64,000 nt of DNA, taken from contig NZ_AP019841.1 in the NCBI RefSeq assembly GCF_007990445.1, positions 2,170,001 through 2,234,000 of the forward strand, in the 5' to 3' direction. The DNA comes from Leptotrichia wadei (GTDB taxonomy: Bacteria > Fusobacteriota > Fusobacteriia > Fusobacteriales > Leptotrichiaceae). Below, one piece after another: positions 5,521 through 63,657 of this stretch (position 1 is the first letter of the stretch; the number at the start of each line of letters is the position of its first letter). Under the pieces are notes generated by a model. That model saw nothing but the letters and a program-made list of their open reading frames with translations. It was not told the DNA's origin and searched no databases. Made by a program: the position numbers and the translations under genes.

Positions 5521-7032
5521 TTATTTCCCAGCCAAAATTTTTCTTACTACTTCCCTATCATCAAAATGTGTTTTTTCATTTCCAATTATTTGATAAGTTT
5601 CATGTCCTTTTCCTGCGATTAAAAGGCTGTCTCCCTTTTGAAGAAGTCTCATTCCATATCTTATTGCCTTTTCCCTATCGGAAATAATTATATATTTGTC
5701 AAATGGATATTTTTCAGCAATAAGCCCTTTTTCTATATCTGCCAAAATTTTTACAGGGTTCTCTGTACGAGGATTGTCTGATGTTAAAATGATGTAATCA
5801 CTAAATTTTGTTGCTGCTTTTGCCATCTTTGGACGCTTGTCGTGATCTCTGTCGCCACCTGCGCCAAATATTGTTATTACTTGATTATCTGTAATTTGCT
5901 TTAAGGTTTTTCCAATGTTTAAAAGTCCATCATCTGTATGTGCAAAATCCACTACAATTCTTGCTTCCAGATCATTTTTTATTGTCTCAAATCTTCCTGG
6001 AACTGATGGCATTTCCTGTAATTTTTTCACAATAAAATCCATTTTTGCCCCAAGCGACAATGCGCTGGCAACACAGCCAAGGACATTATACAAATTATAT
6101 TCTCCCACTAATTCTATTTCAAATTTGTATTCTTCTTCATCTTTATTTTTTACAAGGTTTCTTCTTTCAAAATAATTATCCAAATTTATTTTTATTTTCA
6201 TTCCATGATTTGTATAATTTAAAATATCTCCCCACACATCAGCTTCTTCGTTTTTTATACTTATAGAAATATAATCGTTATTTCCATCTTTTTTTTCAGA
6301 ATAAATTTTTTCCCCATATTTATCGTCAATATTAACTATTCCTACACCATTATTTCTCAGCATTGAAAATATTTTTTTCTTGGCATTAAAGTAATTTTCC
6401 ATAGTTTTATGAAAATCAAGGTGGTCTTGTGTCAAGTTAGTAAATATTGCAGAATCAAATTTAAGCATATCCACACGTCCAATTTGAAGGGCATGGGAAC
6501 TTACTTCCATTATAAAGTAATCTGCACCTTTTTTTACACTTTTATCTATTAATTTTATCAGTTCCAATGATTCTGGAGTTGTATTAACTGTTTCAAATTC
6601 TTCATCTAAAATACGATTTCCAGTAGTTCCTATTCTAGCTGTTTTTTCCAGAATATTTTCCAAAATAAAGCTCGATGTAGTTTTACCATTTGTTCCTGTA
6701 ATTCCAACTATTTTTATTTTATTTTGCGGATAATCGTAATAATTTGAAGCAATTATTCCTAATTTTTTACGTATATCTTCCACTTGAACAAAAGTTACAG
6801 AATCAGCATTTCTATACTCTTTTACATTTACATCCTTTTCACAAACAATCATTTTAGCTCCGCTGTCAATAGCCTTTTGAATAAAATCATGTCCATCCAC
6901 GGTGCTTCCTGTCATTGCCACAAATACAAAATCCTTTTCAATTTTCCGTGAATCATATTCAATGCCCTTAATTTCAAAGTTTTCACCTTCTTGAAGCAAC
7001 TTGTAACTTACATCTTTAAATATTTTATACAT
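5521..7032 (-). CDS. murE: UDP-MurNAc-tripeptide synthetase
   Basis: Cytosolic ATP-dependent Mur ligase that adds the third amino acid to UDP-MurNAc-L-Ala-D-Glu. About 503 residues, normal length. The ATP loop GITGTNGKTTSS and the motif SDNPRTENP are clear. DNPR is the signature of enzymes that add meso-diaminopimelate rather than lysine. Fusobacteria are known to use diaminopimelate or the related meso-lanthionine, so the true substrate needs testing. A GGGAGAG ribosome site lies inside the first codons of the longest frame, so the start at 7030-7032 (MYKIFKDV) is preferred. Confidence 0.93.
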   Translation of the reverse strand: MYKIFKDVSYKLLQEGENFEIKGIEYDSRKIEKDFVFVAMTGSTVDGHDFIQKAIDSGAKMIVCEKDVNVKEYRNADSVTFVQVEDIRKKLGIIASNYYDYPQNKIKIVGITGTNGKTTSSFILENILEKTARIGTTGNRILDEEFETVNTTPESLELIKLIDKSVKKGADYFIMEVSSHALQIGRVDMLKFDSAIFTNLTQDHLDFHKTMENYFNAKKKIFSMLRNNGVGIVNIDDKYGEKIYSEKKDGNNDYISISIKNEEADVWGDILNYTNHGMKIKINLDNYFERRNLVKNKDEEEYKFEIELVGEYNLYNVLGCVASALSLGAKMDFIVKKLQEMPSVPGRFETIKNDLEARIVVDFAHTDDGLLNIGKTLKQITDNQVITIFGAGGDRDHDKRPKMAKAATKFSDYIILTSDNPRTENPVKILADIEKGLIAEKYPFDKYIIISDREKAIRYGMRLLQKGDSLLIAGKGHETYQIIGNEKTHFDDREVVRKILAGK

Positions 7033-7134
7033 TTTCACATACTCTCCCTTTTCCAAAAATCCTGTAATTCTAAAATTTTCATTTATATATACTCGAATCT
7101 CCTTAAAACCAAACTAATAAAAATTGAGTAAAAC

Positions 7135-7185
7135 TAGGATTTGAGTAAAATTATCATAACTTTAAACTTAGTTTTAAAGTAATCT
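7135..7185. repeat. Dispersed intergenic repeat, family 2, copy 1
   Basis: AT-rich segment in the 343-base gap between murE and the tRNA genes. It has the core TTTGAGTAAAATtaTCATAA followed by tttaaacttagttttaaagt, and is also found at 10478-10530 and 27395-27455. No gene was seen in the rest of the gap apart from the tRNA promoter. Confidence 0.6.
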
Positions 7186-7315
7186 TTATAAGCAGGCTGA
7201 AGTTTAAGTTCATTAAATTTATTTAGCTTTTATTAATTTAATTTTTGAGAGATCTAAAAATATCTTATAATGTATTTTACCACTTTAACTAAAAAAAATC
7301 TAGAAAAAAAAGTTG

Positions 7316-7344
7316 TTGACAAATTTAAAAAAATACTGTATAAT
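7316..7344 (+). promoter_or_regulatory. Consensus promoter of the tRNA cluster
   Basis: TTGACA (7316-7321), exactly 17 bases, then TATAAT (7339-7344): a perfect sigma-70 consensus with optimal spacing, 32 bases before the tRNA-Leu 5' end. This is what is expected for a strongly expressed stable-RNA transcript. Confidence 0.92.
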
Positions 7345-7375
7345 CTTATTTGTAAGTTTACTTTTAAGTAAATAT

Positions 7376-7463
7376 GCCTTGGTGGCGAAATCGGTAGACG
7401 CACAGGACTTAAAATCCTGTGGGAATTTATCCCGTGCCGGTTCAAGTCCGGCCCGAGGCACCA
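7376..7463 (+). tRNA. tRNA-Leu (anticodon TAA)
   Basis: Class II tRNA of 88 bases with encoded CCA. Acceptor GCCTTGG pairs with CCGAGGC. The anticodon stem CAGGA/TCCTG encloses loop CTTAAAA, giving anticodon TAA. A long variable arm (GTGGGAATTTATCCCGT) confirms a leucine-type tRNA. First of three co-transcribed tRNAs. Confidence 0.97.
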
Positions 7464-7483
7464 CTTAATAAAGCTTTCATTGT

Positions 7484-7560
<77 letters not shown>

Positions 7561-7563
7561 AAT

Positions 7564-7640
7564 GCCTAGATAGCTCAGTCGGCTAGAGCATACGGTTCAT
7601 ACCCGTAGGGTCGGAAGTTCGAATCTTCTTCTAGGCACCA
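7564..7640 (+). tRNA. tRNA-Met (elongator, anticodon CAT; tRNA-Ile2 not excluded)
   Basis: 77 bases with encoded CCA. Acceptor GCCTAGA pairs with TCTAGGC, anticodon stem TACGG/CCGTA, loop TTCATAC, T stem GGAAG/CTTCT with one G-T pair. CAT genes can also encode the lysidine-modified tRNA-Ile that reads AUA; the sequence alone does not settle this. Only three bases separate it from the initiator tRNA. Confidence 0.9.
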
Positions 7641-7969: not shown

Positions 7970-9010
7970 ATGAAAATATTAATAATAAGATTTAGCTCAT
8001 TTGGGGATGTAGTGCTTACAACTCCAGTAATAAGGGCAATTAAAGAGAAATATCCAAAGGCTGTAATAGATTTTGCAGTTTATGATACTTTTTCTGAAGC
8101 AATTTCGTTAAATCCTGAAATTAGGAATTTGATAATTTTTGAGAAAAAGAAAAGTAAAGACCGAAAATATATAAAAGATATGATAAATAGACTAAAAACA
8201 GAAAATTATGATTATGTCATTGATCTTCATTCTAAATTTTTGTCTAGAATTATTGGAAAAAGTCTTGAAAACAGGCATACTCAATATTGCCGATACAAAA
8301 AAAGAAAATGGTGGAAAACTATTCTTGTGAAGGCAAAACTTATAACCTATAATGCAGATTGCACAATTGTTGAAAGTTATTTTACAGCTTTAAAGAAATT
8401 GGGAATAAATTTTTCTGATGAAAATATAAAAAATGGACTTGGAGATAATCTGGAATTTTATATTGACAAGCAATCTGAAGAGAAATTTGTAAAAAAATAT
8501 AATTTAAAAGATGGAAAATATTTCGTGCTAGCTCCTGGAGCCTCTAAGTTTACGAAAAAGTGGCCTTATTATGATGAATTGGCAAAAAAAATTTTGGAAA
8601 ATAAAAATAAATTTGTAAATAATGAGGAGAAATTGAGAATTTTTGTGATTGGTGGGAAAGAAGATGCAAATGTTGTAAAAGCTGATAAAGATGGACAAGT
8701 TGTTGATTTATGCGGGAAAATTTCCTTTAAGGAAAGCGGAATATTGTTAAAATATGCAAAAGTGGCTGTTGCAAATGATTCAGGCCCATTTCATATAGCC
8801 AGAGCTGTAAAAGCCAAGACTTTTGTATTTTTTGGACCGACTGATCCAAAATTATTTTCCTTTGAAAAAAATACTTTTTTACTGAATAATCCAAGCTGTC
8901 CACCACATTCACTTTACGGAGATGATAAATTTCCAAAAAAATATGCAGATTGCATGAGTGGAATCTCGGTAGAAACTGTATTTAATAAAATTGTTAAAGA
9001 ATACAATTAA
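7970..9010 (+). CDS. Family 9 glycosyltransferase (heptosyltransferase-like)
   Basis: Cytosolic, inner-face glycosyltransferase of the ADP-heptose:LPS heptosyltransferase family, 346 residues from the ATG at 7970. It opens with MKILIIRFSSFGDVVLTTPVIRAIKEKYP, the family's N-terminal Rossmann motif. In the second half it has LAPGASKFTKKWPYY and the nucleotide-sugar motif ANDSGPFHIARAVKAKTFVFFGPTDP. The frame stays open 22 codons upstream, but AGAGGA sits just before the internal ATG. It would add a heptose or related sugar to lipooligosaccharide core; the acceptor is not evident. It has its own promoter. Confidence 0.88.
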   Translation: MKILIIRFSSFGDVVLTTPVIRAIKEKYPKAVIDFAVYDTFSEAISLNPEIRNLIIFEKKKSKDRKYIKDMINRLKTENYDYVIDLHSKFLSRIIGKSLENRHTQYCRYKKRKWWKTILVKAKLITYNADCTIVESYFTALKKLGINFSDENIKNGLGDNLEFYIDKQSEEKFVKKYNLKDGKYFVLAPGASKFTKKWPYYDELAKKILENKNKFVNNEEKLRIFVIGGKEDANVVKADKDGQVVDLCGKISFKESGILLKYAKVAVANDSGPFHIARAVKAKTFVFFGPTDPKLFSFEKNTFLLNNPSCPPHSLYGDDKFPKKYADCMSGISVETVFNKIVKEYN

Positions 9011-9120
9011 CAGACTTAATTTTATTTATTCAAGATTTTAATATTAAAAGATTTTATAAAAAATAAAATTTTACCAATAATTACATAGTTTATAAATTAT
9101 CAAATGATTCTATATAAAAA

Positions 9121-9209
9121 GAAAGTGTAAACTTTTTTGTGTAAATAAACTAAAAAAAACTTATATCATTAGGTTTGTTATACATTTATACAAAATTATA
9201 TGCACTCTC
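9121..9209. mobile_element. MITE-like element, copy 1
   Basis: 89 bases bounded by imperfect terminal inverted repeats: gaaagtgtaaacttttttgt on the left, and a right end whose complement reads GAGAGTGCATATAATTTTGT. The same ends flank the 92-base element at 27075-27166. No coding capacity. The gagAGTGTAAA-type ends resemble insertion-sequence termini; the parent family is not visible in this window. Confidence 0.55.
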
Positions 9210-9239
9210 AAATAATAAAAAAAGAAAGAGAGAAAAATT

Positions 9240-10268
9240 ATGAAAATACTTGCATTTGAATCATCTTGTGATGAAACTTCCGTTGCAGTTGTTGAGGATG
9301 GGAAAAAAATTTTAAGTAACATTATTTCCACACAAATTGACATTCACAAGGAATTTGGCGGTGTAGTGCCTGAAATTGCCTCACGGCACCATATAGAAAA
9401 TATTTTACCAGTATTTACTGAAGCTCTGGAAAAAGCCAGCTGTAAATTAAGCGATATTGATTATATCGCTGTAACGAACACTCCTGGACTTATTGGATCT
9501 TTGCTTGTAGGCTTAATGTTTGCAAAATCCCTAAGTTATGCCAATAATATTCCATTGATTCCTGTAAATCACATTAATGGGCATATTTTTTCAAGTTTCA
9601 TCGACAACGATGTAAAATTGCCTGCAATATCGCTAGTCGTGTCAGGCGGACATACAAACTTATATTATATTTATGAAGAAAATGGAAAAATAATCACTGA
9701 TTTGCTTGGTGAAACATTAGATGATGCAGTTGGAGAAACTTATGACAAAATTGCCAGAATATTGGGACTGGAATATCCTGGAGGTCCGCATATTGATAGA
9801 CTATCAGTAAATGGTGAAGATATTCTAAAAATAAAAAAACCAAAAGTTGATGGCTACAATTTTAGTTTTAGCGGAATAAAAACTTTCATAACTAATTATG
9901 TAAATAGCCAAAATATGAAAGGTAATCCAATTTCAAAGGAAGATATTGCAAAATCGCTTCAGGAAATTATTGTAAATGTTCTATATGATAAAATTTTAAT
10001 GGCTGTAAAGGAAAAGAATGTGAAAACGATACTTGTTGCAGGTGGCGTTTCTGCAAATAGACGCCTTCGTGAAAAATTTTCAGAATTTACAAATTTAAAG
10101 ACTGATGAAAATGAGCAAATTCAAGTTCATTTTCCTAAAATGGAATATTGTACAGACAATGCGGCTATGATAGGAGTTGCAGCCTATTATGACTTAAAGA
10201 ATAATTCTCAAATTAATTTGGAAAAACAGTATGATGTGGATGCGATTTCTACAAAATTAGAAAAATAA
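9240..10268 (+). CDS. tsaD: tRNA N6-threonylcarbamoyladenosine transferase TsaD
   Basis: Catalytic subunit for the t6A modification at position 37 of ANN-decoding tRNAs, working with TsaB, TsaC and TsaE, which are not in the window. 342 residues, normal length. Seen: N-terminal FESSCDETSVAVV, metal-binding VNHINGHIF (the HxxxH motif), the ASKHA segments LVVSGGHTNL and LDDAVGETYDKIARILGL, and LVAGGVSANRRLRE near the C-terminus. The start follows an AGAGAG site. The MITE-like element lies just upstream. Confidence 0.96.
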   Translation: MKILAFESSCDETSVAVVEDGKKILSNIISTQIDIHKEFGGVVPEIASRHHIENILPVFTEALEKASCKLSDIDYIAVTNTPGLIGSLLVGLMFAKSLSYANNIPLIPVNHINGHIFSSFIDNDVKLPAISLVVSGGHTNLYYIYEENGKIITDLLGETLDDAVGETYDKIARILGLEYPGGPHIDRLSVNGEDILKIKKPKVDGYNFSFSGIKTFITNYVNSQNMKGNPISKEDIAKSLQEIIVNVLYDKILMAVKEKNVKTILVAGGVSANRRLREKFSEFTNLKTDENEQIQVHFPKMEYCTDNAAMIGVAAYYDLKNNSQINLEKQYDVDAISTKLEK

Positions 10269-10324
10269 TAATAAAATAACCAACAAAAAAAATATTACTT
10301 TGGTTATGTTACAATAAATCAAAT

Positions 10325-10364
10325 AAAAAATAACCGCTGTTATTTATAAGAACGGTTATTTTTT
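10325..10364. terminator. Bidirectional terminator between tsaD and a HAD gene
   Basis: Twelve-base arms AAAAAATAACCG and CGGTTATTTTTT around a 16-base loop. Because the arms carry A and T tracts, both strands end in a U-run, which suits the two convergent genes on either side. Confidence 0.85.
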
Positions 10365-10477
10365 AATTATGTTAATTTTTACAAATATCTCTTCTATATC
10401 CAACGGTTAATGCTGAAATTATCAACTTATTATCTCTGATATTATTTTAAAATAGAACTGCTAAAAATTATATAAAT

Positions 10478-10530
10478 CTAGGGTTTGAGTAAAATAGTCA
10501 TAATTTTTGAGTTCAGTTTTAAATAAGTTT
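10478..10530. repeat. Dispersed intergenic repeat, family 2, copy 2
   Basis: Contains gggtttgagtaaaatagtca then taatttttgagttcagtttt, matching the segments at 7135-7185 and 27395-27455. It lies between the terminator and the 3' end of the first HAD gene. Confidence 0.6.
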
Positions 10531-10556
10531 TACTATACAAATAATAAAAATTATAA

Positions 10557-11381
10557 TTAAATATTCTTTGCTCTTTCCAAAAACAATTCCTGCAATTTCA
10601 CAGCTTCTCCATCTTCTGTATTTGCTCCAACAAATTCAAAATCCTTAGGCAGCAGCTTTCTTAATCTCTCAATGGAATTTCCCATCGCATAACCTTTTCC
10701 AACCATTGTAAGCATTTCAAAATCATTTTCACCATCGCCAAAAGCTACCGCATCCTTCAGTTCCAAGCCTTCTCTTTCTAACAGGAATTTTGCCGCTGCA
10801 CCCTTATTGGCTCCTTTTGTCATAATTTCCATACAATAATCGGTAACGAAAATAACATTTACATCGTTTCTTATTTTCAAGATGGCTTTTTCCAAGTTTG
10901 TAAGCTGCTCATGTTCTCCAATGTAAAATATTTTTAAAATATCCAAGTTCTTTAATTCGTCCTTTGGAACTTCCTTAAAGTCAACTTTTACATCCCTTGA
11001 AACCCTGTCATATACTTTTTGTGCTGTTCCTTTCGTAATAATCCAGTCGTTTCCTGAAAAAATATTTAAATGTGAACCTTCAGCTATGCTTTCATAATCC
11101 AGCCCCAAGATTGCCTCTGCCGCTTCTTTTGGCAATCCTTTTTCATAAATCATATTTCCATCTGCATCAAAGATTCTTGCGCCATTTGCAGCTATAATGG
11201 GAATTTTTACCTCAAGCTGCTCAGTTATATACCCAATCTGGTCATAGCTTCTACCTGAAGCAATATAAAAGTTTATTCCTTTTTCTATTATTTCCTTTAT
11301 TATATCTTTAGTAAATTTTGTAACATGATGCCCTCTGCATAGTAAAGTTCCATCCAAATCACTGATAACTGCTTTATACAT
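10557..11381 (-). CDS. Cof-type HAD-superfamily phosphatase
   Basis: Predicted soluble sugar-phosphate or nucleotide phosphatase of the Cof/YidA subfamily (HAD IIB), 274 residues. Motif I is ISDLDGTLLCRGHHVT with the nucleophile and acid aspartates. Motif II lies near YIASGRSYDQIG, motif III is the Lys in TKGANKGAAAKFLL, and motif IV is AFGDGENDFEML. Its 3' end faces tsaD. It is less similar to the two HAD genes upstream than they are to each other. The substrate cannot be told from sequence. Confidence 0.9.
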   Translation of the reverse strand: MYKAVISDLDGTLLCRGHHVTKFTKDIIKEIIEKGINFYIASGRSYDQIGYITEQLEVKIPIIAANGARIFDADGNMIYEKGLPKEAAEAILGLDYESIAEGSHLNIFSGNDWIITKGTAQKVYDRVSRDVKVDFKEVPKDELKNLDILKIFYIGEHEQLTNLEKAILKIRNDVNVIFVTDYCMEIMTKGANKGAAAKFLLEREGLELKDAVAFGDGENDFEMLTMVGKGYAMGNSIERLRKLLPKDFEFVGANTEDGEAVKLQELFLERAKNI

Positions 11382-13682: not shown

Positions 13683-13761
13683 CTGAACCTCCCACAACTA
13701 AAGTCGCAGGGTTCTAAAATCTTTAAAAATATTTAAAAATTTTCTAAGAAGTTTGATAGCT
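13683..13761 (-). ncRNA. IStron 1 right end and putative omega-RNA 3' part
   Basis: The stretch after the tnpB stop is conserved in the second IStron and ends in a hairpin (CCC-T-GCGAC-TTTA-GTTGT-GGG) followed by AGGTTCAG. In TnpB systems the guide RNA is made from the 3' end of the element and its last bases come from flanking DNA. This region is also the 3' splice-site end of the intron, terminal G at 13683. Role inferred by family and position. Confidence 0.5.
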
Positions 13762-15006
13762 TTACACTACCCTTATTCTTTTAGGTGTGTTCAGCTCACC
13801 TCTATTGTATAGGACGCTTAAGTCCACAACTTTACTTTTTCTTAAAATATTTAATGCTCCATTACAATCTGCATTTAATTGATAGCCTTTACTTGTTTGA
13901 TATAGTCCTCTTTTTATTCTTTTTCCACTGAATATGTATTCTTGTGAATTTTCTTTATCATATATCGGGATTTCATCTCCATCAAAGAAACTTGCTTTTG
14001 ATGTATAACTCTCTTCTTGCAGTTTAAATTTTATTCCATATAGTTTACATAGATATATTAATTTATCTCTTAATTTTCCATATGGTATATTTACAAAGTT
14101 CTGATTATTTATGCTTCCTATATTTGAATTTCTTTGAAAATCTTCATTACATCCTAGAACTAGTTTTCCTATATCATTATTAAGACAATAATTTATAATT
14201 ATTCTTGCTGCTTTTGAAAGATAATCATTTATGCGATTATTTCTCTTTCTAGCTATTCTTTTTTGTCTTAATGTTGTGCGGGAGGTCTTTTGCTTATCTT
14301 TTATACTTTGTAATTTTGCATTTGTCTTATTATAGTATTGATTTATTGATTTTAATTTTCTACCATCTATTATGAATGAAGCTCCAGTATTTGTAACACA
14401 AGTACAAAGATTATCTATACCTAAATCTATTCCTAGTACATTGTTTTTATTTAATTCCCTTTGAACTTCTTCTACCTCATAAGTATATTGAATTTCAAAG
14501 TACCTAGAATGTTGTTTTGGTATTATTCTAATCTCTTTTATCTTCTTGCCTTTTAATACTGGTGGTAGTTTTATTGCGATTTCCTTATGTGTCTTTCTAA
14601 ATGAATTTGAATAAGGAATAATCAGCATATCGTCTTTTAATCTAACAAAACTTATAACAAGAGTTGTAAAACCATCTTTATCAAGATAATTAGGTAATCT
14701 TATTTTACCATTATATTGACCATTCTTAGCAAGTTTTAAAAGTCCAAAAAATGATTTAAAACTTCCGTCTACTTCTTTTAGAATTTGCTGAGCCATATTA
14801 GAATTTAATTTCTTGTAATTTTCACTATTTTTAAGCATTTTATAGTTTTCATTATAACTTAAATACTTTTTCTTATTAAAATAGTATTGTCTAATATTAT
14901 ATATAGCTTCATTAGTTAAGTTCTTGGCTATATGAGATAAATATTTTAAATTCCTAAACTCCTTTTTACTAAGATGTTTTACCTGTTGTTTTAATGTTAA
15001 ATACAT
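13762..15006 (-). CDS. tnpB: TnpB-family RNA-guided nuclease of IStron 1 (no zinc ribbon)
   Basis: 414 residues. RuvC I is [15 protein letters not shown] and RuvC III is [14 protein letters not shown]. Between them the usual CxxC-CxxC zinc ribbon is replaced by [17 protein letters not shown] and [12 protein letters not shown], with no cysteine pair. The RuvC II position reads [10 protein letters not shown] rather than the common VVxENL. This is a recognisable TnpB subgroup, but catalytic competence is less certain than for the two zinc-ribbon TnpBs in the window. An AAGGAGGTGAT ribosome site lies directly upstream. Expected role is retention of the element by cutting empty sites; inferred from the family. 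Confidence 0.88.
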
Positions 15007-15095
15007 ATATAATCACCTCCTTTTCATCAGAGATATTATACCATGTATTCTACATTTTATCTGTTTATTTTTAAATATTTTTAAAGTTTTTAAAA

Positions 15096-15627
15096 CCCCA
15101 CAACAGCGGGAAGCGTCGTTCACATAAGTACGCTACTACTTATGCAGTTCTCATGGCATATATACTCCTTAATAAATTAAGGAGACTAGCCTTGAACCTC
15201 TTGTTATCTCTAACAAGCACAGACTATATCTTATCCATATCCTATTTCAAGGACTTAGGCGAAACCACTTCCAATACCTATCGCTTGTATTGTACTCCCC
15301 TCACGAGGGATAGTCGTTGAACTTTCCTTTTCAGGATTAGCTGCTGATTGTCTATTATATTCCTTTCTATACGTACGGCTCAATGTTTAGGATTTAACCT
15401 TGCACCATCTAGTATATTTTTTCTGCTTTCGCTACCTTCACACTTATACCATATTCTCAATTAGGTATTATGTTGTGGTCATACTAGCTTTAAGAGTTCC
15501 CAGCAATTCAGTTTCTTTGTTGCACGGTTTTGTTCCGTGTCTACATATAAGTTTCCCTATATGCTTACTAAAATTTTTGTGCAATTTATCCTCACGACTA
15601 AAGTCGCGAGTGTTCTTGTACTATTTA
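15096..15627 (-). ncRNA. Group I self-splicing intron, 5' catalytic portion (IStron 1)
   Basis: Leftward-strand sequence with group I core elements: P-like AATTGCTGGGAACTC (15487-15509 region), Q-like AATCAGCAGCTAATCCTG (15332-15349), R GTTCAACGACTATCCC (15307-15322) and S AAGATATAGTC (15222-15232). GACTA of R pairs with TAGTC of S to form P7. The 5' splice site would be after TTTTAT at 15628. Downstream stems (GGAGACTAGCC.., an AAGTAGTAGCGTACTT hairpin) are peripheral. There is no protein-coding frame in this strand. This copy has about 22 bases in the region between P and Q that IStron 2 lacks. Confidence 0.88.
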
Positions 15628-60880: not shown

Positions 60881-61448
60881 TTATTTTGCCAATTCTATTA
60901 AATATTTTTTATATTTTTCTAAATCTAAATTCTTAGCTTCAATTTCCTTAAAATACTTATAAGTCTTAACTTTTATATCCGAAGCCGCCATCTCATCAAT
61001 CACTAGCACTGCCCTTCTATGCAGCTGCAAAGCCGAAATTGTCCAAAGATGATTAACTCCGCCTTCTACTCCATGATAAACCGCACGGGCCTTTTTATAC
61101 CCATTTGCAAGAATCATAACCTCCTTTGAGTCCATAAGCGTCCCCACACCAATTGTCAAGGCTGATTTTGGCACTTTTTCAATATCATTGTCAAAAAATC
61201 TGGAATTTGCCAAAATTGTGTCATAAGTCAGATCCTTGTCACGTGTATGTGAAGAAAGCGATGAACCTGGCTCATTAAATGCAATATGCCCATCTTCTCC
61301 AACTCCGCCCAAAAACAGCTGAATCCCGCCAGATTTTTTTATTTTTTCCTCATAGTTATGACATTCTTCCTCTAAATCTTCGGCACATCCATTTAGAATA
61401 TTTATATTTTCTTTTTTTATATTAATATGCTTAAAAAAGTTCTCATTC
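60881..61448 (-). CDS. nagB: Glucosamine-6-phosphate deaminase, 3' exon (after IStron 2)
   Basis: Second part of nagB, 189 codons plus the base that completes the split codon. It reads [20 protein letters not shown], then [21 protein letters not shown] with the catalytic Asp-His-Glu set, ANSRFFDND, and [13 protein letters not shown]. With the 5' exon (63392-63657) it forms a 277-residue enzyme that converts glucosamine-6-phosphate to fructose-6-phosphate and ammonia. Alone it lacks the N-terminal substrate loop and the Asp of NMDEYVGL, so it cannot be a functional enzyme. Confidence 0.93.
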
Positions 61449-61527
61449 CTGAACCTCCCACGACTAAAGTCGCAGGGTTCTAAAATCTTTAAAAATATTT
61501 AAAAATTTTCTAAGAAGTTTGATAGCT
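61449..61527 (-). ncRNA. IStron 2 right end and putative omega-RNA 3' part
   Basis: Stretch after the tnpB stop, ending in hairpin CCC-T-GCGAC-TTTA-GTCGT-GGG and AGGTTCAG, with the terminal G as predicted 3' splice-site base. Predicted guide is the adjoining nagB exon, starting GAATGAGAACTTTTTTAAGC. Compared with IStron 1 the hairpin has one extra Watson-Crick pair (C for T), which keeps the stem. Confidence 0.5.
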
Positions 61528-62775
61528 TTACACTACCCTTATTCTTTTAGGCGTGTTCAGCTCACCTCTATTGTATAGGACGCTTAAGTCCACAACTTTA
61601 CTTTTTCTTAATATATTTAATGCTCCATTACAATCCGCATTTAATTGATAGCCTTTACTTGTTTGATATAGTCCTCTTTTTATTCTTTTTCCACGGAATA
61701 CATATTCTTGTAGATTTTCTTTATCATATATTGGGATTTCATCTCCATCAAAGAAACTTGCTTTTGATGTATAACTCTCTTCTTGCAGCTTAAATTCTAT
61801 TCCATATAGTTTACATAGATGTATTAATTTATCTCTTAATTTTCCATATGGTATATTTACAAAGTTTTGATTGTTTATACTTCCTATATTTGAATTTCTT
61901 TGAAAATCTTCATTATATCCTAGAACTAGTTTTCCTATATCATTATTAAGACAATAATTTATTATTATTCTTGCTGCTTTTGAAAGATAATCTTCTATAC
62001 GATTATTTCTCTTTCTAGCTATTCTCTTTTGCCTCAATGTTATATGCTCTATCTTTTGCTTATCTTTTATGCTTTGTAATTTTGCATTTATCTTATTATA
62101 GTATTGATTAATAGATTTTAATTTTCTGCCGTCTATTATGAATGAAGCTCCATTATTACTAACACAAGTACAAAGATTATCTATACCTAAATCTATTCCT
62201 AGTCCATTTTCTTTATTTAATTCCCTTTGAACTTCTTCTACTTCATAAGTATATTGAATTTCAAAGTACATAGAATGTTGTTTTGGTATTATTCTAATCT
62301 CTTTTATCTTCTTGCCTTTTAATACTGGTGGCAGCTTAATTTTAACTTCCTGATGAGTTTTCTTAAACAAATTTGAATAAGGAATAATCAGCATACCATT
62401 TTTTAATCTAACAAAACCTATAACAAGAGTTGTAAAACCATCCTTAGCAAGATATTTAGGTAATTTTATTTTTTTATTATCATATTGACCATTCTTAGCA
62501 AGTTTTAAAAGTCCAAAAAATGATTTGAAACTTCCGTCTACTTCTTTTAGAATTTGTTGAGCCATATTAGAATTTAACTTCTTATAGTTCTTACTATTTT
62601 TAAGCATTTTATAGTTTTCATTATAACTTAAATACTTTTTATTTTTAAAATAGTATTGTCTAACATTGTATATAGCCTGATTCTTTAAATTTTTAGCTAT
62701 ATGGCACAAATATTTTAAATTTCTAAACTCTTTTTTACTAAAATGTTTTACCTGTTGTTTTAAAGTTAAATACAT
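61528..62775 (-). CDS. tnpB: TnpB-family RNA-guided nuclease of IStron 2 (no zinc ribbon)
   Basis: 415 residues from the ATG at 62773-62775, aligned with the start of the IStron 1 protein. Ruv[17 protein letters not shown], RuvC II region VLGYNEDFQR, the cysteine-free [17 protein letters not shown] block, and Ruv[18 protein letters not shown]. Relative to copy 1 the ribosome site has lost three bases (AAAAGGTGAT instead of AAGGAGGTGAT), so it may be made less efficiently. The many scattered substitutions without stops suggest that selection kept the frame. Confidence 0.88.
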   Translation of the reverse strand: MYLTLKQQVKHFSKKEFRNLKYLCHIAKNLKNQAIYNVRQYYFKNKKYLSYNENYKMLKNSKNYKKLNSNMAQQILKEVDGSFKSFFGLLKLAKNGQYDNKKIKLPKYLAKDGFTTLVIGFVRLKNGMLIIPYSNLFKKTHQEVKIKLPPVLKGKKIKEIRIIPKQHSMYFEIQYTYEVEEVQRELNKENGLGIDLGIDNLCTCVSNNGASFIIDGRKLKSINQYYNKINAKLQSIKDKQKIEHITLRQKRIARKRNNRIEDYLSKAARIIINYCLNNDIGKLVLGYNEDFQRNSNIGSINNQNFVNIPYGKLRDKLIHLCKLYGIEFKLQEESYTSKASFFDGDEIPIYDKENLQEYVFRGKRIKRGLYQTSKGYQLNADCNGALNILRKSKVVDLSVLYNRGELNTPKRIRVV

Positions 62776-62880
62776 ATATATCACCTTTTCATCAGAGATA
62801 TTATACTATATATCCTATATCTTATCTATTAAAAAGTAATATTTTTTATTTATTTTTAAATATTTTTAAAATTTTTAAAA

Positions 62881-63391
62881 CCCCACAACAGCGGGAAGCG
62901 TCGTTCACATAAGTGCGCTACTGCTTATGCAGTTCTCATGGCATATATACTCCTTAATAAATTAAGGAGATTAGCCTTGAACTTCTTGTTATCTCTAACA
63001 AGCACAGACTATATCTTATCCATATCCTATTTCAAGGACTTAGGCGAAACCACTTCCAATACCTATCGCTTGTATTGTACTCCCCTCACGAGGGATAGTC
63101 GTTGAACTTTCCTTTTCAGGATTAGCTGCTGATTGTCTATTATCATAATGTTTAGAATTTAACCTTGCACCATCTAGTATATTTTTTCTGCTTTCGCCAC
63201 CTTCACACTTATACCATATTTGAACGAAGGTATTATGTTGTGGTTATACTAGCTTTAAGAGTTCCCAGCAATTCAGTTTCTTTGTTGTACAGCTTCTCTC
63301 TGTATCTACATACAAGTTTCCCTATATGCTTACTAAAATTTTCGTGCAATTCATCTCACGACTAAAGTTGCGAGTGTTCTTGCACTATTTA
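62881..63391 (-). ncRNA. Group I self-splicing intron, 5' catalytic portion (IStron 2)
   Basis: Same core as IStron 1: P-like segment at 63252-63274, R GTTCAACGACTATCCC at 63092-63107, S AAGATATAGTC at 63007-63017, with R and S pairing as P7. All core strands are unchanged from copy 1. It lacks about 22 bases in a peripheral segment between P and Q (after the ATAATAGACAATCAGC region), which is compatible with splicing if that segment is a peripheral loop. Confidence 0.88.
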
Positions 63392-63657
63392 ATAAAATAG
63401 TGATAACTTTGCGGATCTTCAGGCTTTAATCCCACATATTCATCCATATTAAAAGTCACGACATTTTCAAACGACAATATCCCTTCATTATACAAATTTA
63501 TCAGTTCCCGATAAGTCGCAAGCGGCGTAGAGCCCGTAGGAAGTCCCAGCACAAAGGGCTTTTCCCTTGTAGGCTTAAATTTTAATATTTTTTTAGTAAT
63601 CTGATAAGCACTCCATCTTGCCACTTCATCAGCATTTTTTAAGATAATTACACGCAT
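63392..63657 (-). CDS. nagB: Glucosamine-6-phosphate deaminase, 5' exon (before IStron 2)
   Basis: First 88 codons plus two bases (AT of a split ATG). [39 protein letters not shown] (phosphate and sugar loop), and [20 protein letters not shown] with the general-base Asp. The junction AT|G with the 3' exon gives YFMNENFF, which aligns with the E. coli NagB segment FMHRNFF. The ATG at 63655-63657 has AGGG about 12 bases upstream; a GTG three codons earlier is too close to that site. Confidence 0.92.

Follow-up and report, generated by a model that had tools for sequence, protein, structure and literature searches.

A group A IStron in the single-copy nagB gene of Leptotrichia wadei that very probably splices itself out of the pre-mRNA

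In a 64,000-nucleotide (nt) stretch of the Leptotrichia wadei genome (contig NZ_AP019841.1, positions 2,170,001 to 2,234,000; hereafter the window), the nagB gene is interrupted by an IStron, an element that combines a group I intron with an IS605-type TnpB gene. It is very likely that this insert, a group A IStron, splices itself out of the pre-mRNA of the single-copy nagB and so gives a frame of 277 codons. The evolution of the element copies and of their host genes suggests that the cell relies on the insert being spliced out of RNA.

Removal of positions 61449-63391 leaves a nagB coding sequence of 834 nt, that is 277 codons and a stop, whose protein gives one unbroken match to TIGR00502, the nagB model, at positions 1-259 of 259 (404.5 bits); the separate genomic pieces score 123.3 and 261.9 bits. 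These two pieces are the only nagB matches in a profile search of the 2.40 Mb genome. With the Pfam Glucosamine_iso model, the 143 exon 2 codons tested scored 20.5 bits, below the cut-off of 27, and exon 1 was unmatched. The codon split by the element is AT-G and the protein across the junction reads YHYF-M-NENFF, residues that we take to resemble those of E. coli NagB at the same place. Translation running from nagB into the element reads AT-T AAA TAG and stops after four element bases. An uninterrupted nagB with the same junction occurs in 10 of the 13 Leptotrichia genomes searched, and also in L. hongkongensis JMUB5056, Leptotrichia sp. oral taxon 879 F0557 and one Leptotrichiaceae metagenome-assembled genome (these may coincide with some of the 13); the closest named genes are those of F0557 (93%) and JMUB5056 (92%). 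There is no target duplication, and the uninterrupted homologues rejoin exactly in the 13 nagB alleles compared. A preliminary description of this DNA had proposed that excision restores an intact nagB, that an AT-G codon is split and exactly rejoined, and that an in-frame stop lies four bases into the insert; the joined frame, the uninterrupted alleles and the translation bear this out, and the empty allele that it suggested seeking in relatives is present, with a seamless junction.

The same description had taken the insert for an IStron with group I R and S motifs in the sense of nagB, and both points hold (Table 1). All 60 copies considered, at 57 distinct sites in 7 genomes, start with TAAATA and end with TTCAG. 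TTTAT directly precedes the element in 59 of them, the remaining one (L215; loci and genomes carry our own L and G numbers) having one extra T at the junction. In all 60, bases 1-3 are the stop codon TAA and bases 5-7 are TAG or TAA. A pair of R and S motifs, each with at most one mismatch and 40-140 nt apart, occurs twice in the window and in none of 50 triplet shuffles; the exact R motif is found at 63096-63107 and at 15311-15322, the latter within the second IStron of the window. The TnpB frame lies on the same strand as the intron and matches Pfam OrfB_IS605 (99.6 bits) and Cas12f1-like_TNB (34.7 bits). Its motifs DLGID, NED and NADCN, near residues 196, 289 and 382, were chosen by eye as candidates for the RuvC acidic residues, and phmmer found no relative in the PDB at E 0.01. 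A GAACGA-like motif (GTGAACGACG, element positions 484-493, by eye) precedes the insertion sequence part.

Table 1. Coordinates in the window of the interrupted nagB, its IStron and a second IStron
Feature	Position	Strand	Basis
nagB exon 1, 266 nt	63392..63657	-	reading frame and nagB model matches
Target TTTAT, final five bases of exon 1, paired in predicted P1	63392..63396	-	
IStron, 1943 nt, sense to nagB	61449..63391	-	ends common to 59 other copies; uninterrupted alleles
TAAATAG, stops at element bases 1-3 and 5-7	63385..63391	-	
Left-end hairpin	63355..63374	-	by eye; putative transposase recognition role, by analogy
Internal guide sequence GTAAG, predicted to pair with exon TTTAT	63329..63333	-	
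Group I intron core, P1 to P9	62985..63391	-	named structure counted on 34 introns
R element GTTCAACGACTA, 5' strand of P7	63096..63107	-	
S element AAGATATAGTC, 3' strand of P7	63007..63017	-	
TnpB (OrfB_IS605) frame, 418 aa; perhaps starts at ATG 62775	61528..62784	-	Pfam
Right-end hairpin	61457..61477	-	by eye; putative transposase recognition role, by analogy
nagB exon 2 including stop	60881..61448	-	reading frame and nagB model matches
Second IStron (L010), before Cof-type hydrolase	13683..15627	-	

In the mechanism that we propose, the 5' part of the element would fold as a group I ribozyme in the nagB pre-mRNA, the TnpB gene and the end hairpins being carried within the intron. The guide GUAAG would pair with UUUAU, which is both the end of exon 1 and the insertion target; the RNA would then be cut after the final U of the exon and after the terminal UUCAG, and the exons would be joined. 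The stops at element bases 1-3 and 5-7 would halt nagB ribosomes before the core in two of the three frames.

The fold was assessed on the 34 most diverse of 71 introns (59 TTTAT copies, without L005, and 12 introns inserted after TTGAT). These 34 comprise 26 TTTAT and 8 TTGAT-type introns, four of the latter being cbiJ introns of this genome (G000) and of G007 that hold no open reading frame (ORF). A named structure from P1 to P9 with the P3/P7 pseudoknot, 69 pairs in all, was compared with 500 shuffles and with slid versions of itself. Paired cells amount to 99.3% (90.7% shuffled, at most 42.4% slid), 26 of the 69 pairs have changed on both sides (18.0 shuffled, at most 8 slid) and the covariation score is 0.272 (0.113 shuffled, at most 0.063 slid). 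That the structure was drawn on one of the 34 sequences biases the comparison with slid versions in its favour. Further pair types number 53 against 49.4 in the shuffles, 26 of the 500 reaching this value. P7.1 and P7.2, which together with an extended P9 characterise the class IA2 introns of group A IStrons, show compensatory changes; P9.0 to P9.2 lie outside the model. In P1, exon UUUAU is accompanied by guide GUAAG in 59 of the 60 copies, L005 having no guide. Of the 12 TTGAT-type introns, 10 combine UUGAU with GUCAG as an exact string, and the alignment shows GUCAG and GUCAA for the remaining two. Because the guide changes together with the target motif, the insertion target doubles as the predicted 5' splice-site recognition sequence.

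Copies with both ends were found in 7 of the 13 genomes, at least 60 in all (G000, 15; G006, 3; G007, 3; G008, 6; G009, 1; G010, 28; G012, 4, besides a partial copy left out of the 60); the counts may be low, as 40 first-look candidates were scored in all genomes but one. Internal stretches are missing from two of the 60: L005 lacks part of the core and L204 part of TnpB. When orientation was read from the longest open frame across the junction, with a cut-off of 100 codons, 54 copies were sense, none antisense and 6 in short frames (52, 0 and 8, respectively, at 120 codons). This could result from insertion mechanics rather than from selection for splicing, if such elements insert into a single strand at the replication fork and genes are co-oriented with replication, and all 15 copies of this genome indeed follow the replichores (10 on the plus strand at 0.08-0.97 Mb, 5 on the minus strand at 1.68-2.31 Mb). 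As a control, TTTAT sites of matching replication orientation, judged by the neighbouring copies, were scored over 400 kb of G000 and G010, two of the 7 genomes, in 20 stretches of 20 kb each; they gave 1094 sense, 285 antisense and 332 short cases (n = 1711). The distinct sites (shared-site rows L178, L185 and L198 dropped, extra T of L215 trimmed) gave 51 sense, 0 antisense and 6 short. Since 0 of 51 in-frame sites are antisense against 285 of 1379 in the control, the sense bias exceeds what replication orientation explains (p about 7e-6), and an origin in insertion mechanics is unlikely. By reading, about 3 of the 28 copies of G010 (L200, L203, L212) break the neighbour-orientation pattern.

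L005 provides a natural control. It is the only copy without the guide, P2, the 5' strands of P3 and P4, and P5 (element positions 56-225, bounds taken from BLAST; the multiple alignment put the gap at 51-172), and it lies two codons before a stop, where read-through into the element costs two residues. L208 carries a G-U change in P7. As to the sites themselves, T stands at -6 with a frequency of 0.67, against 0.31 in the control, and 29 of 51 sites, compared with 344 of 1094, use the frame TTT AT-N (chi-square test on the three frames, p = 8e-4); the phase-0 preference that the published survey discussed below might predict was not seen (15 of 51 vs. 517 of 1094).

The host genes of the copies in this genome, named by model or Pfam match, are nagB, dnaB, mfd, queA, cbiN, cbiJ, and genes for an MFS transporter, a sulfate-binding protein, a DXD glycosyltransferase, a family 2 glycosyltransferase, agmatinase, a Cof-type hydrolase, a type I specificity-like protein, a subtilase-domain protein (probably an autotransporter) and a protein with weak methyltransferase matches, whose start codon is apparently split AT-G (by eye). 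DnaB is split at profile positions 310/311, in the sole dnaB of the genome apart from a 25.7-bit match that has a counterpart in 13 of 13 genomes and is, by reading, RadA-like. The gene is uninterrupted in the other 12 genomes. dnaB is essential and its loss is lethal. In the sole mfd the break falls at profile positions 671/676; the one further strong match to its profile (362.6 bits) is, by reading, RecG-like.

G000, G007 and G012 carry the nagB insertion at one and the same bond and form a clade with 100/100 support in both the dnaB and the nagB trees. Among these three carriers, nagB shows 22-72 nt but only 3-10 residue differences, and the ratio of non-synonymous to synonymous substitution rates (dN/dS) is 0.028-0.038, compared with 0.035 between two uninterrupted alleles. 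The simplest reading is one old insertion followed by purifying selection. It might instead be supposed that the insertion merely inactivates nagB, with a ribozyme that is dead or too weak and exons that look intact as the insertion is recent or NagB dispensable. The evidence for splicing is indeed drawn from genomic sequence, nagB may be dispensable, and copies do decay, TnpB being broken (below 400 aa) in 9 of 60 (p = 0.017 against 1 broken core, 0.053 against 2). However, the presence of the insertion throughout the clade with so few residue changes, the unchanged R and S of the nagB copy within a fold that covaries, and the interruption of the only dnaB by the same element make simple inactivation very improbable. 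Alternatively, function could be restored at the DNA level, a transposase excising the element in some cells, which would supply nagB and dnaB function; such a view accords with an IS200/IS605-type element and with seamless uninterrupted sites. Yet the element has no TnpA, the genome yielded a single TnpA/Y1 transposase, which is part of a distinct tnpA-tnpB element whose end hairpins differ (L053 1477-2977; G000:C1:371097-372597), and the remaining cells would die from the loss of dnaB, so that excision from DNA deserves hardly any credence.

Several points nevertheless weigh against splicing from a long-resident insert. That splicing takes place in the cell, and that it yields enough NagB, is something we infer, and one genome per species was sampled. 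In the element tree, the copies at the common nagB site form no group, and the dS of their TnpB genes (0.17-0.20) does not track that of nagB (0.12, 0.49, 0.49). L203, with an extra base in R (P7) within a long frame, is a possible counter-example. P7 is invariant in the 34 introns and so carries no covariation signal, and the fold model spans P1-P9, with the 3' splice site outside it. Finally, the Rfam group I model (RF00028, Intron_gpI) did not detect the element at E 1, had no hit in a scan of the window and remained under its cut-off on the related introns of L225 and L231; the same model finds the phage T4 nrdD intron with 105.3 bits.

Along the nagB-site elements the nearest neighbours switch, these elements being mosaic, and element copies seem to recombine or to have arrived separately. 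A single nagB insertion deduced from the element tree was dropped, as the nagB-site elements are ungrouped and mosaic, and host-gene trees were used instead. No clear co-conversion gradient was found around the nagB junction. A synonymous CAC common to the three carriers, compared with CAT in the correctly aligned uninterrupted alleles, is compatible with co-conversion and with clade ancestry alike. Dependence of amino-sugar use on splicing, which the preliminary description had put forward, is what we infer because nagB is single-copy and under purifying selection in the clade, the ribozyme and the P1/target pairing covary, and insertion is sense-only.

Transposon homing by TnpB has been proposed (PMC8612924, in the part available to us). 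At nagB, the 16 bases 3' of the junction, the would-be guide, are identical in the uninterrupted alleles of G002, G003 and L. hongkongensis, and show 1-3 differences in the other 10 of the 13 alleles compared. The queA gene is interrupted at three sites in four genomes (L014, L177, L181, L198), more than expected for its size (about 0.007, a rough value corrected for 2000 genes). One queA site is common to the distant G007 and G010; 0.16 such coincidences are expected by chance, so that the shared site is not significant alone, and the G007 and G010 queA elements are unusually alike (0.3 percentile). Because the same queA bond is used in two distant species and the would-be guide at nagB is identical in relatives, one may tentatively imagine, as a possibility that we do not favour, an IStron family turned into an obligate intron population: dozens of copies, all in sense orientation and some of them in essential genes, would be kept only via splicing, TnpB guided by the 3' exon would re-home copies into uninterrupted alleles, and recombination would keep the copies mosaic and working.

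Other inserts were noted. L010 lies between GGAGG and the ATG of the Cof-type hydrolase (by eye), so its splicing would bring ribosome site and start codon back to their original distance. Six 45-nt mini elements (L043-L048), all at apparently intergenic places, follow TTTAT and consist of a left and a right end joined around a single hairpin, and L039 and L040 (G000:C1:880949, 1984470), of about 310 nt, have both ends without the ribozyme core and most of TnpB. The cbiJ/cobK gene for precorrin-6A reductase (L231 6780-10660; G000:C1:224779-228659) apparently holds three introns, namely two ORF-less group I introns after TTGAT (about 6990-7637 and 8055-8596, ends by eye) and an IStron at 8723-10622. 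Three matches to this gene are likewise obtained in G007 and in G012, and a single one in each of the other 10 of 13 genomes, three of these ten carrying one in-frame TAA. A second IStron family (L223-L227, L228, L230) has the target TTGAT, the guide GTCAG or the like and a different TnpB; its loci number six in G010, one in G001 and one in G012.

The interrupted nagB, mfd, queA and, above all, sole dnaB are host genes whose function would report IStron splicing, and the uninterrupted orthologues of sister species offer controls for splicing reporters. Whether splicing of a transposon-borne group I intron is adequate for an essential bacterial gene thus becomes directly testable. So does the conflict between splicing and the TnpB guide RNA from the same 3' junction, IStron splicing versus guide RNA being reportedly the subject of a 2024 Science paper.

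By its sequence features, the nagB insert is an element with the tested characters of group A IStrons, a published kind that includes LbISt1 of Leptotrichia buccalis (Tourasse et al., 2014; PMC4227781, here and below in the parts available to us): a 5' group I intron, OrfB_IS605 inside, a TTTAT target and a TCAG end in 60 of 60 copies. According to that survey, group A targets are TTGAT, ATTAT or TTTAT, and LbISt1 likewise has a 5'-side group I intron with an IS200/IS605-type ORF B inside and no intact ORF A, the target TTTAT, the end TCAG and no target duplication, in the same genus; this likeness is to the description of LbISt1, not to its sequence. However, LbISt1 is present as one 1760-bp copy per strain, compared with 1943 nt and 15 copies here. 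The survey maximum is 24 copies (C. difficile), against 28 in G010, and 118 of its 202 sites are intragenic, against 54 of 60 copies sense in frames and none antisense here. The presence of dnaB and mfd among the hosts is a further difference from the survey (PMC4227781), and no report of an IStron in dnaB was found in the open-licence PMC literature. In the same phylum, the IStrons of F. nucleatum polymorphum also combine a group I intron with a TnpB-like gene, but they use the target TTGAT and, in the accessible part of PMC1924603, number five copies, one predicted functional, with an inactive copy in yesN. The TTGAT-type IStrons and ORF-less introns of the genomes studied here share the fold, R and S of the TTTAT copies, with cores about 65-74% identical; they differ in pairing exon UUGAU with guide GUCAG and in having a zinc-finger TnpB or, in the cbiJ introns, no ORF. 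The phage T4 nrdD intron matches the S motif AAGATATAGTC exactly, whereas T4 introns have no transposon part and instead, by annotation, homing endonucleases. What is new here is the scale, the sense-only pattern, the interrupted sole dnaB and a cbiJ apparently with three introns.
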